The position numbers were made by a program, and so were the translations under genes. This document shows, piece by piece, positions 34,905 through 41,014 of a DNA stretch of 52,453 nucleotides. Positions within the stretch are counted from its first letter, which is position 1; every line of letters starts with the position of its first letter. The stretch lies in NCBI GenBank assembly GCA_013290125.1, contig JABCYQ010000021.1, forward strand, positions 1-52,453, in the 5' to 3' direction. This DNA is from Vulcanimicrobiota bacterium. GTDB taxonomy: Bacteria; Vulcanimicrobiota; Vulcanimicrobiia; Eremiobacterales; Eremiobacteraceae. A model generated the notes under the pieces. The model ran no database searches and had not been told where the DNA came from. It saw nothing but the letters and a program-made list of their open reading frames with translations.

Positions 34905-35483
34905 TTGATACCCGCTGACATAAACGCAACGTACGAAGTGCATGAATGGCGCAATGCACTGGCCGTCCTCGTCGTTGCGCATCCTACGGAATGGCAAGAG
35001 ATTTTGACCGTATTGCGCGGTTTTAAGCTGAGCAAAAGTGACATTTTGGTTGGCGGCGGCCGCAAATCTCTCGTCGCTAACAAGTTAGATGGACAGTTTT
35101 ACAATCTCGGTTGGATAGAAAGACGATTTGACACAAAGATTGTGGTCGACGAGGCGGAGTATCCATCCCCAACGCACGGTGTAGATTGCTACAAGAATAA
35201 GGTCGCGCTGGAGGTGGAATGGAATAATAAGGATCCGTTCTTCGATCGCGATCTAAACAACTTTCGCCTACTGTTTGAGCTGCGCGCGGTCGACGTTGGA
35301 ATTATAATCACTCGTTGTGACTCTCTGCAGCCCATATTCAGATCGCTAAATATCGGACCGAAGTATGGCGCGTCGACGACACACATGAACAAACTGTTAC
35401 CCCGAGTTGAGGGTGGAGGCGGTGGAGGATGCCCGGTACTGGCGTTCGGAATCAGGCCCGCGCTGTACGATCCGAACTCATAA
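34905..35483 (+). CDS. BglII/BstYI-like type II restriction endonuclease
   Basis: 192 residues from TTG 34905; the frame stays open further up but without ATG or GTG. The core Asp94-x8-Glu103-Val-Glu105 (DCYKNKVALEVEW) fits the BglII active site D-x8-E-x-Q/E, and EVEWNNKDPFFDRDLNNFRLLFELRAVDVGIIITR is the hallmark of the BglII/BstYI family. These enzymes cut sites built on GATC (AGATCT, RGATCY). The exact site is not readable. The base composition is lower in GC than the flanks. The 3' end overlaps the next gene by 55 bases. Confidence 0.85.
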   Translation: MIPADINATYEVHEWRNALAVLVVAHPTEWQEILTVLRGFKLSKSDILVGGGRKSLVANKLDGQFYNLGWIERRFDTKIVVDEAEYPSPTHGVDCYKNKVALEVEWNNKDPFFDRDLNNFRLLFELRAVDVGIIITRCDSLQPIFRSLNIGPKYGASTTHMNKLLPRVEGGGGGGCPVLAFGIRPALYDPNS

Positions 35484-36133
35484 CACTCGACCCTGGAGAC
35501 TGGTTGCTTAGGTCGACCTCCGGCGCGAAATTCGGCACAGTTTTGGCCGACCCGCCGTGGCGCTTCTCCAATCGAACCGGCAAAATGGCGCCAGAACATC
35601 GCCGCTTGTCTCGCTATGCGACGATGAGTCACGAACACATCGCGGAGTTACCAATCCCTCAAATTGTGCAACCAGAGGCGCATCTCTATCTCTGGGTCCC
35701 CAATGCCATGATAACCGAGGGACTCGAGGTGATGCGCCGGTGGGGATTTACATACAAGACCAACATCGTCTGGTTTAAGGTCCGCAAGGATGGCGGGCCA
35801 GATGGACGCGGTGTTGGGTTTTATTTTCGCAATGTAACCGAATTGGTACTTTTTGGAATTCGAGGTCGCTTGCGAACGTTGAAGCCCGGTCGGACACAGG
35901 TTAATATTGTCGCCACCCGAAAGCGCCGCCATTCGCAAAAACCCGACGAATTATATGGCCTAATTGAGCGCTGCAGCCCCGGCCCTTACCTCGAGCTCTT
36001 CGCACGCCAATATAGGCCTAATTGGCATCAGTGGGGAGACGAGATCGAGAAGCCACCGCTGCGTCTTATCTCCCCGGTGGCGGACTCGACAGCCAAGAAG
36101 CCCGTTCGCAAGATCGCTTCTTTTGAATGCTAG
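35429..36133 (+). CDS. MT-A70-family DNA adenine methyltransferase
   Basis: 234 residues; ATG 35429 follows GGAGG with almost no spacer. DPPW at residues 41-44 (VLADPPWRF) is the catalytic motif; HLYLWVPNAM, FTYKTNIVWFK and the late ELFARQYRPNWHQWGDE are typical MT-A70 segments. It should methylate the N6 of adenine using S-adenosylmethionine. It overlaps the restriction gene and is likely one of its protecting enzymes. In phages and bacteria such proteins usually recognise short adenine-containing sites. Confidence 0.85.
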   Translation: MPGTGVRNQARAVRSELITLDPGDWLLRSTSGAKFGTVLADPPWRFSNRTGKMAPEHRRLSRYATMSHEHIAELPIPQIVQPEAHLYLWVPNAMITEGLEVMRRWGFTYKTNIVWFKVRKDGGPDGRGVGFYFRNVTELVLFGIRGRLRTLKPGRTQVNIVATRKRRHSQKPDELYGLIERCSPGPYLELFARQYRPNWHQWGDEIEKPPLRLISPVADSTAKKPVRKIASFEC

Positions 36134-36417
36134 CGCTCCAAACCGAAACGTGCCTTGTCCGGATTGTCTGCCGGATGTATGCGCCAGTCAACAGGATTTT
36201 AGACTCATGTTCGTTGCTTAGTTTTGAAGAATGGCTATGCAGTAAGAGATTCGGAAGCAAATGAATCACGCGCTACGCGATCGAAATAACGTCAACTTCG
36301 AAGCCGAACTGTCTTAAGGGATCTAGTCGGTTCGCGGGAGACAACATCGAAACCAGAGCAGTTGTAAATCTAGGGTCTCGTGACGTCGTTCACGTTGCGG
36401 AGCCATTTTCAAGTATC

Positions 36418-37278
36418 TTGAAGTGGGCGGGAGGAAAGGGATCTCTCTCGAAAATAATTTTACCAATAGTCCGGACGCACTTGAGAAACCGGTACATCGA
36501 GCCGTTTGCGGGAAGCGCCGCGATATTCTTTCGCCTATCGCCGAACGCCGCGATCCTAGGCGATCTAAATCCCCACTTAATGCGCCTATTCTCGGCGATT
36601 AAAAGTGATCCCGAGGGCGTTTCGCAAGCTCTGGATCGAATTCGACAACGCGCAAGTGGTTTGAATGGGAAGGCATTTGCTGCCTTCTATTACTCGCTTA
36701 GGGACGATTTCCCGAAGAAGAAGCGAAGCGAGAACGCTGCACTCCTCCTTTTTCTTAATCAACACTGTTGGAACGGACTATACCGCGTAAACCAAACGGG
36801 CGAATTCAACACACCAATTGGATCCTACCAATCTCTACGCACGATGCCGTCACTTCAGTCGCTAAGCGCTGCATCGGAGGCGCTTCAACGCGCTTCACTT
36901 CAACTCGCTGACTTCGAGGTTGTCGCATCGATGGCTAAACCGGGTGACTTTGTCTACTTTGACCCGCCTTATGCGCCCACGTCCCAAACAGCAAGATTCA
37001 CGTCATACTCGGCGACCCAGTTCACCTGGCTCGATCAGGTACGGCTAAAACGGGTCCTGTATGACCTAACTGATAGAAAAATATCGTTTCTTCTCTCGAA
37101 CTCGGCGACGCAAACGATGATAAATCTTTACAAGGACTTCGTACAAACCACTGTATCGGCCGCAAGATCCATAAATTCGGTTGGAAGCAAACGACGAGGT
37201 TTTGTTGAACTATTGGTTTCAAACTTCGAAATCGACAGCGCCGAGCATTCACTATTTCAATTTAAGGAAGTACCATGA
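36418..37278 (+). CDS. Dam/D12-class DNA adenine methyltransferase
   Basis: 286 residues from TTG 36418. KWAGGKGSL (SAM motif I, residues 2-10), YIEPFAGSAAIFF, and DPPY at 182-185 within YFDPPYAPTSQTARFTSYSATQF are diagnostic of the Dam/DpnM group that methylates GATC. The start is doubtful: the frame is open for about 50 codons upstream (with ...VAEPFSSILKW directly before motif I) but contains no ATG or GTG, and no good ribosome site is seen for the TTG. A GATC methylase beside a BglII-like nuclease fits a complete restriction-modification system. Its TGA overlaps the next ATG. Confidence 0.88.
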   Translation: MKWAGGKGSLSKIILPIVRTHLRNRYIEPFAGSAAIFFRLSPNAAILGDLNPHLMRLFSAIKSDPEGVSQALDRIRQRASGLNGKAFAAFYYSLRDDFPKKKRSENAALLLFLNQHCWNGLYRVNQTGEFNTPIGSYQSLRTMPSLQSLSAASEALQRASLQLADFEVVASMAKPGDFVYFDPPYAPTSQTARFTSYSATQFTWLDQVRLKRVLYDLTDRKISFLLSNSATQTMINLYKDFVQTTVSAARSINSVGSKRRGFVELLVSNFEIDSAEHSLFQFKEVP

Positions 37279-38477
37279 TTGACGAAACCATGCTTCCAGC
37301 TGATTCGGTCGAGGAAGAACTCGAAGAAGTTCAGGCTCTCGAAGACGTCGTCTTACCGGAAATCAAAGACCGCCGACTCGTTTTCTATTGCGTTAAGGGC
37401 AAGTGCTTAAACGTGGAATGCTATCGCGGCTTCGCACCGGCGAAGTATGTGAGTTCCATAAGCCAGCCTGACGTTTACAATCAATTCTCGAATCCGGAAG
37501 GTACTCAGCGCGAGCTGAGCATTTCAAAAGCTAAGGACGCATACGCTTATATGGATGCGGAGGGCGCGGATCCGGCGACAGATCAGCGGTTTATGACGGA
37601 AGTTGTCTTGAATGTGCGGCGCGAAAACGTTGTTGAAGTGGAGCAGCTTAGAGACGCTTTCTACAAAGTGACGGTGCTCCTAGACATGCTGACTGACAGT
37701 GAGGAAGAACCTGACATCTCGCGGGTTGAGGGCAACCATCGACTGACATACGCGCACGGCTTCAAAAAACTTCCGGCGCTCGATGTACCAATTAGTTTCT
37801 GCCTCATCTCCGGAATCAATAAGCTCATGGAAGCAAAGATCTTTCGCGACATAAATTCCAACCAAAAGCCAATGCAGACCAGCCATTTGGACAACATTGA
37901 CATGCGCATTGACGAAATGGGTGGCAAGGCCGCAGAGGACCACGTGAAGATCGCGTTCAAACTTTCGCGTGATCTACAGTCTCCTTTTCTAGACATTGTT
38001 TACGCGGGTGGCAAGAAAGCCCCAGGTCAACTTCTCCCGATAACGCTCCGCTCACTTGGCACGCTTGTAAGGATCATGCAAGCGAAGAGTGAAAAGCTAA
38101 GCGCTCTAGATTTTGAGCAACAATATCATGTGATCCGCGCGTATTGGAAAATTATTTCCGGGATCTTTCAGGCTGAGTGGAATGACAGCAAGAAACAATA
38201 CTTGTTGATGCGGAGCGCGGGCACGATCGCTTTGGCATTCGCCGGAGCAACCGCGATCAATGACTTGTACGTGCTCGGCAAAATTAAGAATTTGGCGGAC
38301 TACCTCGAGCCACTTCGAGGCAATGTCGACTGGTCTAAGAATGGCCCTGCACAGGGCTTGAATGGTGTCGGCGGCGCCACTCAGATATACAACCGCTTTC
38401 TTAAACCACACCTAAGTGTCCGCAGTGTCGACCACTCTGACATAAGGAAGCAGATCGAACAATTATCGTCACTCTAA
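37275..38477 (+). CDS. DGQHR-domain protein (DndB-like)
   Basis: 400 residues, start overlapping the methylase stop (ATGA). EGNHR at 152-156 is a variant of the DGQHR motif; GTQREL near 76-81 and FRDIN at 190-194 fit the partner motifs of the family (QR and FxxiN). The family includes DndB of phosphorothioation systems and lone proteins in defence islands; its biochemistry is not settled. The acidic N-terminus (about 1-30) may be a flexible tail. Coupling to the Dam-like gene suggests a role in regulating or extending this modification system. Confidence 0.75.
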   Translation: MIDETMLPADSVEEELEEVQALEDVVLPEIKDRRLVFYCVKGKCLNVECYRGFAPAKYVSSISQPDVYNQFSNPEGTQRELSISKAKDAYAYMDAEGADPATDQRFMTEVVLNVRRENVVEVEQLRDAFYKVTVLLDMLTDSEEEPDISRVEGNHRLTYAHGFKKLPALDVPISFCLISGINKLMEAKIFRDINSNQKPMQTSHLDNIDMRIDEMGGKAAEDHVKIAFKLSRDLQSPFLDIVYAGGKKAPGQLLPITLRSLGTLVRIMQAKSEKLSALDFEQQYHVIRAYWKIISGIFQAEWNDSKKQYLLMRSAGTIALAFAGATAINDLYVLGKIKNLADYLEPLRGNVDWSKNGPAQGLNGVGGATQIYNRFLKPHLSVRSVDHSDIRKQIEQLSSL

Positions 38478-38495: not shown

Positions 38496-39041
38496 TTGAG
38501 CATCTTACTTAAGGCGCGCATGGCCCGCCACAAGAGTCGGAGTAGCCTTGCGGAACTCTGTGGAGTAAGCTCCAGTCGCGTTCTGGATTGGGAGATGGGG
38601 TACCACAGGATTCCCCCCATGCATATATCGAGAATTTGCTATTGGTTACGACTTAATAGAGAACAACTTCGAGTCAAACCGTCGGTTCGCGTATGCTGGA
38701 TCTGTGAGCTCGAATCTCCTCTCGACCTTGCTCACGTAGTCCCGCTCGAAAGTGTCAGCCAGGAGGATAGCGATCGAGCGGAAAACCTCGCGGATCTTTG
38801 CCCAAACCACCATCGGCAGTTTGATTTTGAAGGCCTCGATTGTGATCAGGTGGACCGATTCTACGCTAACCTGAGTTACATTGTCGACACGTGCGGAGGC
38901 ATGAGCATTGGCGAGTGCGATTCATGTGTTTACTCCATCCCATTACCTGATTCGGGCGCACCTTTTTGTTCGAATGAACGACTTCGCTTTGAGCTCTTTA
39001 AAATAAATTCCACCCGATTGCGAGCCCGAAAAACAAGCTAG
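38496..39041 (+). CDS. HNH endonuclease with N-terminal helix-turn-helix
   Basis: 181 residues from TTG 38496, 18 bases after the DGQHR gene. Residues 1-60 look like an Xre-type DNA-binding helix-turn-helix (SLAELCGVSSSRVLDWEMGYHRIP). The HNH nuclease follows, with Cys67-x2-Cys70, His80 (DLAHVVPLE), Asn97 (AENLADLC) and Cys102-x3-His106, a zinc-binding HNH. A C-terminal part contains a third cysteine cluster (CDSCVY). Probable DNA nuclease; with the DGQHR gene it may form a separate restriction module. Confidence 0.8.
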   Translation: MSILLKARMARHKSRSSLAELCGVSSSRVLDWEMGYHRIPPMHISRICYWLRLNREQLRVKPSVRVCWICELESPLDLAHVVPLESVSQEDSDRAENLADLCPNHHRQFDFEGLDCDQVDRFYANLSYIVDTCGGMSIGECDSCVYSIPLPDSGAPFCSNERLRFELFKINSTRLRARKTS

Positions 39042-39060: not shown

Positions 39061-40254
39061 ATGAAACCCGACGACTTCAAAGACCCGAGGACAGGCCGGC
39101 TCGTTCAAATTGGGAACGACCATTGGGCATTCGTACCGGCAGACTTGCCGCCCAACATTTCCTGGACAGATGAGCTTGTTAGCCGTTTGAGCCTCGCGGA
39201 AAGATCCGTTGGCACGTTAACTGGTCTCTGCAGGTGGCTGCCCAACACGCAGCTTTTTGCACAGGCGTTTCTGAATCGGGAAGCGGTTTTGTCGTCGCGA
39301 ATGGAGGGGGCCAGCGCCACGCTTTCGGACATATTTGCACACAAGATCGCGCCAAAATCGGCCACTAAACTAAGTGCGGATACTACAGAAGAGGTCTACA
39401 ACTACGCCCTCGCGCTTGAACATGGTCTTGATCGACTGAAACATCTTCCTATTTCTCGTCGGCTGCTGTGCGAGGTACATAGAGTCTTGTTGGATGGGGT
39501 ACGCGGTCAAGAGCATGCCCCGGGGAGGTTTCGAACAAATCAGAACATGATAGGGAACCGAGGTGATACGCCGCGCTCGGCTAGGTTTGTTCCACCACCG
39601 CCTGGTGAAGAGCTTGAAAACGTTCTGGATAAGTTAGAGAGCTACATTAACAACCCGACGGGCCTTCCCATTCTGGTTGATCTGGCCCTGATCCACTATC
39701 AGTTTGAGACGATACACCCATTTGCAGACGGAAATGGACGCATCGGCCGTTTGCTACTTACGCTCCTGCTAATTAGTCGCGGTGTGCTTGCTGCACCGTT
39801 CCTCTACTTGAGCGCCTTTTTCGAGCGAAATCGGACCGAGTATCAGCGCCGCCTGTTGGATGTGAGCCAGCGAGGCAACTGGACGCGATGGATTGACTTC
39901 TTCCTTCAGGCGATAATTGAGGAGGCGGATGATGCGATTGCGCGAGCTAGCTCACTGCAGTCTTTACGAGAGGAATATCGGCGTAGGGCGCAGGCGATAT
40001 CCGGCCCACGCAGCATCCTTACCGCGATCGACTATAGTTTTGTTGAGCCAGTATTTAGCGTCGGGACGCTAAGGCGTATAATTGCCCGGTCCGCCGCTGA
40101 CACACGCGCTGTTCTCCGACAATTGGTGGAGATGGGCGTGGTTGTCGAGAAGACCGGGAAGCAACGCAATCAGGTCTTCGTCGCCGAGCAAGTGCTCGCT
40201 ATCCTAGAAGCGCCAACTACCGAATCCCCAATGCAACCCGCTTCAGGTGACTAA
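39061..40254 (+). CDS. Fic-domain protein (class II) with C-terminal winged helix, copy 1
   Basis: 397 residues. HPFADGNGRIGR starting at His219 is the Fic active site. The inhibitory motif Ser78-x3-Glu82-Gly83 (SSRMEG) lies N-terminal, making it a class II, self-inhibited enzyme. The middle matches proteins with the Fic/DUF4172-like N-terminal segment, and residues about 320-385 look like a winged helix (RRIIARSAADTRAVLRQLVEMGVVVEKTGKQRNQVF). Fic proteins transfer AMP or another group to a target protein. The gene follows the HNH nuclease by 20 bases and shares its low GC. Confidence 0.88.
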   Translation: MKPDDFKDPRTGRLVQIGNDHWAFVPADLPPNISWTDELVSRLSLAERSVGTLTGLCRWLPNTQLFAQAFLNREAVLSSRMEGASATLSDIFAHKIAPKSATKLSADTTEEVYNYALALEHGLDRLKHLPISRRLLCEVHRVLLDGVRGQEHAPGRFRTNQNMIGNRGDTPRSARFVPPPPGEELENVLDKLESYINNPTGLPILVDLALIHYQFETIHPFADGNGRIGRLLLTLLLISRGVLAAPFLYLSAFFERNRTEYQRRLLDVSQRGNWTRWIDFFLQAIIEEADDAIARASSLQSLREEYRRRAQAISGPRSILTAIDYSFVEPVFSVGTLRRIIARSAADTRAVLRQLVEMGVVVEKTGKQRNQVFVAEQVLAILEAPTTESPMQPASGD

Positions 40255-40636: not shown

Positions 40637-41014
40637 CTATGCTAGACAGCCAACATCATCGAGCCTTTCGAGCGGCCAGCCGTATTGCAATAGCAATTTC
40701 GCGGCAAGCCGTCGGTCATCAGCAGAAAAGAGTCGCTTGAACTGTGGCATCAACACTTTGTACTCAACGGTCAGGTGATAAAGCCCAGCCATTGCGAGAT
40801 CAGCGAATCCACTCGAATATCCGGTGTCGTTCTTCGACTTCCATGCCTTGGCGGCGCTTCCATACTCGGCGATGATATTCAACCATCGTTGCCTTGGCGG
40901 AAGCTTATGTATCTGGTGGACTTCGATTGCCGAGGCGATCGCTTCCCTTGTGAACCTCTTATCGAGCTCATCGTCACCCAAGTGGTCAAGGTTATCGAAC
41001 TTCTGCGCATTCAT
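40637..41014 (-). CDS. 125-aa hypothetical protein
   Basis: ATG 41014; GAGGGGAA lies about 14 bases upstream, farther than usual. The product is soluble and helical, with AIEVHQIHKLPPRQRWLNIIAEYGSAAKAW and LMPQFKRLFSADDRRLAAKLLLQYGWPLERL. No known family. It is on the opposite strand to the island genes and between Fic and lon, so it may mark the island edge. Confidence 0.5.
   Translation of the reverse strand: MNAQKFDNLDHLGDDELDKRFTREAIASAIEVHQIHKLPPRQRWLNIIAEYGSAAKAWKSKNDTGYSSGFADLAMAGLYHLTVEYKVLMPQFKRLFSADDRRLAAKLLLQYGWPLERLDDVGCLA

Follow-up and report, generated by a model that had tools for sequence, protein, structure and literature searches.

A BglII-class restriction-modification pair beside a predicted Dam-DGQHR unit in a defence hot spot of a Vulcanimicrobiota bacterium

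Four genes located at positions 34905-38477 of contig JABCYQ010000021.1 (52,453 nt; hereafter the window), from the Vulcanimicrobiota bacterium assembly GCA_013290125.1, encode a restriction endonuclease (R), an MT-A70 family methylase (M1), a Dam-like methylase (M2, hereafter Dam) and a DndB-like protein with a DGQHR domain. Their arrangement is best explained by two modules lying side by side in a defence hot spot, a BglII-class restriction-modification (RM) pair and a Dam-DGQHR unit, and we put the probability of this reading at about 0.6. According to the list of open reading frames (ORFs) of the window, all four genes are on the + strand within 3.6 kb. R and M1 share 55 nt, the stop codon of Dam overlaps the start codon of the DGQHR gene by 4 nt (ATGA, 37275-37278), and a gap of 284 nt separates M1 from Dam. 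The G+C content of the four-gene stretch is ~50%, versus 62% for the window. A preliminary description of this DNA had given the same four genes, positions, names and overlaps, all of which are borne out by the ORF coordinates and the profile matches.

R (34905..35483, + strand, 192 aa, TTG start) is a predicted Type II restriction endonuclease of the BglII/BstYI family, matching the BglII profile PF09195 with an E-value of 1e-43 (149 bits, cut-off 26). Its profile also matches BstYI (1sdo), where the two catalytic residues Asp and Glu coincide and Asn takes the place of Gln; the conserved residues of R are D94, E105 and N107. M1 (35429..36133, + strand, 234 aa) is an N6-adenine DNA methyltransferase of the MT-A70 family (PF05063, E-value 2.8e-32), contains the DPPW motif, and is predicted to be the cognate of R.

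For R, a profile scan of 84,980 species genomes was made and the best 80 loci, 1.01 Mb in total, were kept. These span Proteobacteria, Bacteroidota, Verrucomicrobia, Planctomycetes, Chloroflexi, Acidobacteria and others. An MT-A70 gene is located no more than 300 bp from R in 77 of the 80 loci, directly downstream in tandem in 67, and two of the three loci without this neighbour are at contig ends. The same adjacency is present in the Eremiobacterota loci nearest to the R of the window, and on plasmids (Comamonas pZM22-2 and Roseomonas p5). With the profiles and queries used, neither Dam, other D12 nor DGQHR genes were found in the 1.01 Mb. Because MT-A70 genes accompany R almost throughout, and Dam, D12 and DGQHR genes in none of these loci, the MT-A70 gene alone is, judging from sequence, the cognate methylase of R. 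Together, R and M1 are predicted to form a complete, ordinary BglII/BstYI-class Type II RM pair. The BglII-like restriction system of the preliminary description is thereby upheld, by the PF09195 match as well as by the MT-A70 neighbour; the DpnII-like quartet with two methylases that it envisaged has no counterpart among the R loci, and Dam was rejected as a second methylase of the BglII system on the same grounds. R would cut a GATC-centred hexamer and MT-A70 would shield the same site by N6-adenine methylation, where the site and the division of roles are what we presume from knowledge of the families.

Other arrangements of these nuclease genes were also encountered. In a Hyphomicrobiales metagenome-assembled genome, a BglII-type R and an MT-A70 methylase are fused in a 463-codon ORF (L088:7926-9317) with both Pfam domains above cut-off. 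Paired BglII-family nuclease genes lie close by on opposite strands at L054:7252-8573 and L030:406-2474, with an MT-A70 neighbour in L030, but not in L054.

Dam (36418..37278, + strand, 286 aa counted from a TTG codon, the start being uncertain) is a D12 N6-adenine methyltransferase of the Dam/DpnM type, with matches to TIGR00571 dam (3.6e-67) and PF02086 D12 (4e-47). The nearest solved structure in a PDB sequence search is DpnM (2dpm, 1.1e-45). The KWAGGK, NGLYRVN, FNTP and DPPY motifs align with those of EcoDam and DpnM, and the catalytic motifs are intact. Residues K, N, R and P, the GATC contacts of EcoDam, are aligned and kept, and Dam is predicted to modify GATC.

The DGQHR-domain protein (37275..38477, + strand, 400 aa, DndB/ParB-Srx-like) scores 78.3 bits against TIGR03187 (E-value 7.9e-22), above the curated cut-off of 58.85, and has a QR pair, EGNHR in the place of DGQHR, and FRDIN. 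The ParB/Srx superfamily unites DndB, DUF262 and GmrS, and includes nucleases and NTPases among its members (PMC4619093; PMC10853773; PMC11662687). By analogy with DndB and other proteins of this fold, the protein most likely binds DNA and nucleotide. A PDB sequence search revealed no solved relative.

Most of what is known of DndB-like proteins comes from the phosphorothioate (Dnd) and deazaguanine (Dpd) systems, and to our knowledge a link between DGQHR proteins and methylases has been little studied. The DGQHR family was searched alone in Eremiobacterota, Alphaproteobacteria, Gammaproteobacteria, Bacteroidota and Chloroflexota and its surroundings were annotated with purpose-built profiles, giving 82 loci (0.98 Mb) besides the window. 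A Dam gene is present in nine of them, always on the same strand and less than 600 bp from the DGQHR gene, and nowhere else in the 0.98 Mb. Under random placement and independent loci, such proximity has a p of ~4e-9, a value that overstates the case because the DGQHR loci are partly related. At other DGQHR loci, D12, MT-A70 or N6/N4 methylases occupy the position of Dam, next to DGQHR proteins of ~500-800 aa. Coupling to adenine methylases is a recurrent property of DGQHR genes across bacteria.

Two architectures were observed. In the first, the Dam gene precedes those for a membrane protein with 3-4 predicted helices and, next, a DGQHR protein of ~370-390 aa; the three genes overlap or are closely spaced. 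It was seen in three phyla, in Eremiobacterota G124, in Bacteroidota G1013 and on a Roseateles plasmid, and operons of this type are located at L151:6783-9473, L161:4584-7134 and L299:5597-8145. In the second, a methylase gene adjoins one for a DndB/DGQHR-domain protein of ~720-800 aa. Such two-gene sets, with Dam, D12 or MT-A70 as the adenine methylase, were found in four lineages (L210, L211, L289, L291, L301, L304, L314, L320, L321 and L322), and in several of the large proteins the N terminus gives a weak PD-(D/E)XK-like match and the C terminus a weak HEPN/Abi-like one. For the proteins tested from both architectures, PADLOC returned only generic methylase, DpdB-, DndB- or candidate-type matches and no dedicated model. 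DGQHR and methylase genes are sometimes found near a BglII-type R, as in Acinetobacter pTR3_1, pRiA4 and Chloroflexota L335.

Membrane-protein-DGQHR pairs are also present beside dnd genes (L163), near BglII-type systems (L021 and L160) and elsewhere (L300, L306 and L324). On an Acinetobacter plasmid (L168:427-4303) a DNA methylase, a NotI-family nuclease, a DGQHR gene and a hypothetical gene follow each other in tight order.

The preliminary description had suggested that the DGQHR protein might control the methylases or sense modified DNA, proposing that the same quartet be sought in other genomes and considering that the DGQHR gene might instead travel with unrelated islands only. A tie to methylases stands as far as the recurrent pairing with Dam, D12 and MT-A70 elsewhere is concerned, which is also not what travel with unrelated islands only would give. 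It does not extend to the R-MT-A70 pair, where none of the 80 R loci contains a DGQHR gene, and the intact quartet was found nowhere else among the loci searched.

In the Dam tree, nine DGQHR-linked Dams form one clade (100/100), uniting both architectures. In the DGQHR tree, the membrane-protein-linked DGQHRs of pTR3_1, pRiA4, G124, Roseateles and G1013 group together (support 97); in all five cases an adenine methylase is encoded no more than a few genes away, and in two of them a BglII-type R is near.

A number of observations weigh against reading this particular locus as an RM pair and a Dam-DGQHR unit. The exact Dam-DGQHR pair of the window was found in no relative. The Dam of the window is placed outside the DGQHR-linked clade on a long branch; forcing it into that clade costs 1.6 log units and is not rejected (approximately unbiased test, p 0.22). 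The Dam of Bacteroidota G1013 is likewise outside, and a joint clade with it was rejected (p 0.024). The DGQHR protein of the window is likewise separate from the recurrent clades, with a branch length of 2.4, and its nearest relatives, rhizobial, Roseomonas and Chloroflexota proteins with ~22-28% identity, adjoin other genes, e.g. for a radical-SAM protein and an ATPase. Single-protein scans of viral and genome contig collections revealed no close relatives of it, its signature is EGNHR versus an exact DGQHR in 100 of 115 collected relatives, and a single-sequence AlphaFold model (pLDDT 32) is unusable. Furthermore, the start codon of Dam is doubtful. The TTG at 36418 lies immediately before KWAGGK and has no ATG, GTG or TTG ahead of it in the ORF, yet the in-frame codons before it still look coding (EPFSSILKWAGGK). 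In the M1-Dam interval (36134..36417, + strand, 284 nt), the Dam frame stays open over the final ~50 codons but offers no standard start codon, and no promoter match above chance was found there. Dam may be translated from TTG 36418 or by an unusual start, or its 5' end may have been lost. As for the restriction pair, AGATCT occurs 22 times in the window where 21 are expected, i.e. it is not avoided, and there is no avoidance of GGATCC in the window either.

Both proteins fall on long branches apart from the recurring clades, so that Dam and DGQHR were here probably either joined independently or have diverged strongly as a pair. From the predicted proteins, the restriction half of the locus is already known in kind and the Dam-DGQHR half belongs to a real recurring theme, of which the window is an outlying example.

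The nearest relatives of the window DGQHR on alphaproteobacterial plasmids (L024, L025, L026, L027 and L169) are encoded beside a radical-SAM gene, or a hypothetical gene in L169, and an ATPase gene. Several of these loci add DEAD-box helicase, ParB-N and PIN-like genes.

Downstream of the DGQHR gene, after 18 nt, starts a gene encoding a protein with an XRE-type helix-turn-helix (HTH) and an HNH domain (38496..39041, + strand, 181 aa; PF13391 6.6e-6, HTH_3 1.6e-4), which possibly shares its transcription unit. Relatives of this HNH protein were found neither beside the other DGQHR genes examined nor on plasmids, which is a further point against the preferred reading, and it was rejected as a conserved partner of DGQHR. 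The same island contains, outside the assigned modules, a gene for a SoFic-like Fic protein (39061..40254, + strand; PADLOC SoFic 9e-111). A small ORF between Fic and lon (40637-41014, - strand, 125 aa) had no convincing family match in profile searches of the window proteins. The island thus comprises R, MT-A70, Dam, DGQHR, HNH, Fic and this small ORF, and no dndCDE or dpdAC genes are near. In the congener G018, the same two genes, MFS and lon, enclose 2.5 kb of different DNA. Its products are an HTH regulator and two proteins with weak matches, one to SAD/SRA and the other, which is small, to NOV_C. Since G018 carries other genes between those flanks, the MFS-lon interval is a variable and probably defence-related locus. 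Both modules occupy this defence hot spot.

The second module would consist of the predicted GATC methylase Dam and the DGQHR protein, whose start overlaps the Dam stop codon. Two roles for the DGQHR protein can be envisaged. It could read the adenine-methylation state and license a nuclease, for which the adjacent HNH protein is a candidate, or it could repress its own modification operon as DndB does, a DNA-binding regulator of its own DNA-modification operon (PMC4507180). The recurrent tight link to adenine methylases in several phyla suggests that DndB-like proteins read or control ordinary base methylation too. A bolder and rather doubtful extension is that DGQHR proteins serve in general as readers of adenine-methylated DNA, and that Dam, D12 and MT-A70 methylases and BglII-type systems each recruited them separately. 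The window would then hold another independent recruitment, in which Dam-DGQHR would act in defence by sensing methylation, as a unit not described before, next to a restriction pair of the classical kind.

Among the alternatives, the one that survives best is that Dam and DGQHR are chance neighbours, i.e. unrelated cargo of the island, with an overlap that is functionally meaningless and a Dam that is perhaps a decaying orphan. The exact pair without a conserved relative, the long branches of both proteins, the missing normal start of Dam and the altered DGQHR motif are all consistent with this, and we consider it a real, if unlikely, possibility. However, the 4-nt ATGA overlap and the intact catalytic motifs of Dam argue against it, as does a pairing of Dam with DGQHR elsewhere that is far above random placement and always same-strand and close. 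It is improbable that Dam, DGQHR and HNH are a restriction system of their own, in which DGQHR-HNH would be a two-gene relative of GmrSD, DndI or SspE and Dam would supply the mark that is read. The HNH gene begins just past DGQHR, a ParB-like domain is joined to HNH in GmrSD, DndI and SspE (PMC4619093; PMC11662687), a Pseudomonas plasmid has a DGQHR gene directly after an HNH gene, and fusions of a nuclease-like part with DGQHR recur beside methylases. The HNH protein of the window, however, carries its own HTH, its HNH_2 match is modest, and no relatives of it adjoin any other DGQHR gene examined. Least probable is one four-gene DpnII-like system, with two methylases against one GATC-centred nuclease (one for double-stranded, the other for single-stranded or hemimethylated DNA) and DGQHR regulating both: the shared direction of the genes within 3.6 kb, DpnM as the closest solved structure to Dam, the second, single-strand methylase of DpnII loci (PMC3573125) and the overlapping site that Dam would modify if the R/MT-A70 site is GATC-centred would fit it, but R is paired with MT-A70 in 77 of 80 loci and never with Dam or DGQHR in the R census, the quartet does not recur, and M1 and Dam are 284 nt apart.

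On the preferred reading of an RM pair beside a Dam-DGQHR unit, the window illustrates that a single four-gene system can be mimicked by an ordinary restriction pair lying next to such a unit. The two compact operon types, Dam-membrane protein-DGQHR and methylase with large DGQHR, are directly testable anti-phage candidates. No paper on Dam-DGQHR pairs was found in the literature searched, which omitted most subscription journals. HEPN-ParB fusions were mentioned in a survey from 2013, as was a HEPN family whose genes share an operon with those for a ParB nuclease and a DNA methylase (PMC3710099); because of these HEPN-ParB-methylase links, the DGQHR fusion architecture was at least partly anticipated.

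Compared with known systems, the restriction pair has the same R family and the same order of R followed by MT-A70 as the BglII/BstYI-class RM systems of Comamonas pZM22-2 and Roseomonas p5. Relative to BstYI, the R of the window has Asn for the active-site Gln, with no essential difference otherwise. The likeness to DpnII (dpnM, dpnA and dpnB) lies in two unlike adenine methylases by a GATC-type nuclease and in the resemblance of Dam to DpnM, whereas the R of the window is BglII-type, its second methylase is MT-A70, and its two methylases are not found together elsewhere. With DndB/TIGR03187 of the Dnd and Dpd systems the window protein shares a DGQHR domain over the cut-off, but it stands without dnd or dpd genes, has a Dam methylase as partner and EGNHR as signature. 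The Dam-membrane protein-DGQHR operons (L151, L161 and L299) similarly have Dam upstream of DGQHR in tight or overlapping genes, whereas in the window no membrane-protein gene lies between Dam and DGQHR, no protein there has predicted membrane helices, and both proteins are on other branches. The systems of a methylase with a large DGQHR (L210, L211, L289, L291, L301, L304 and L320-L322) also couple an adenine methylase to a DGQHR protein, whereas the DGQHR protein of the window is 400 aa long and has no nuclease or HEPN part.

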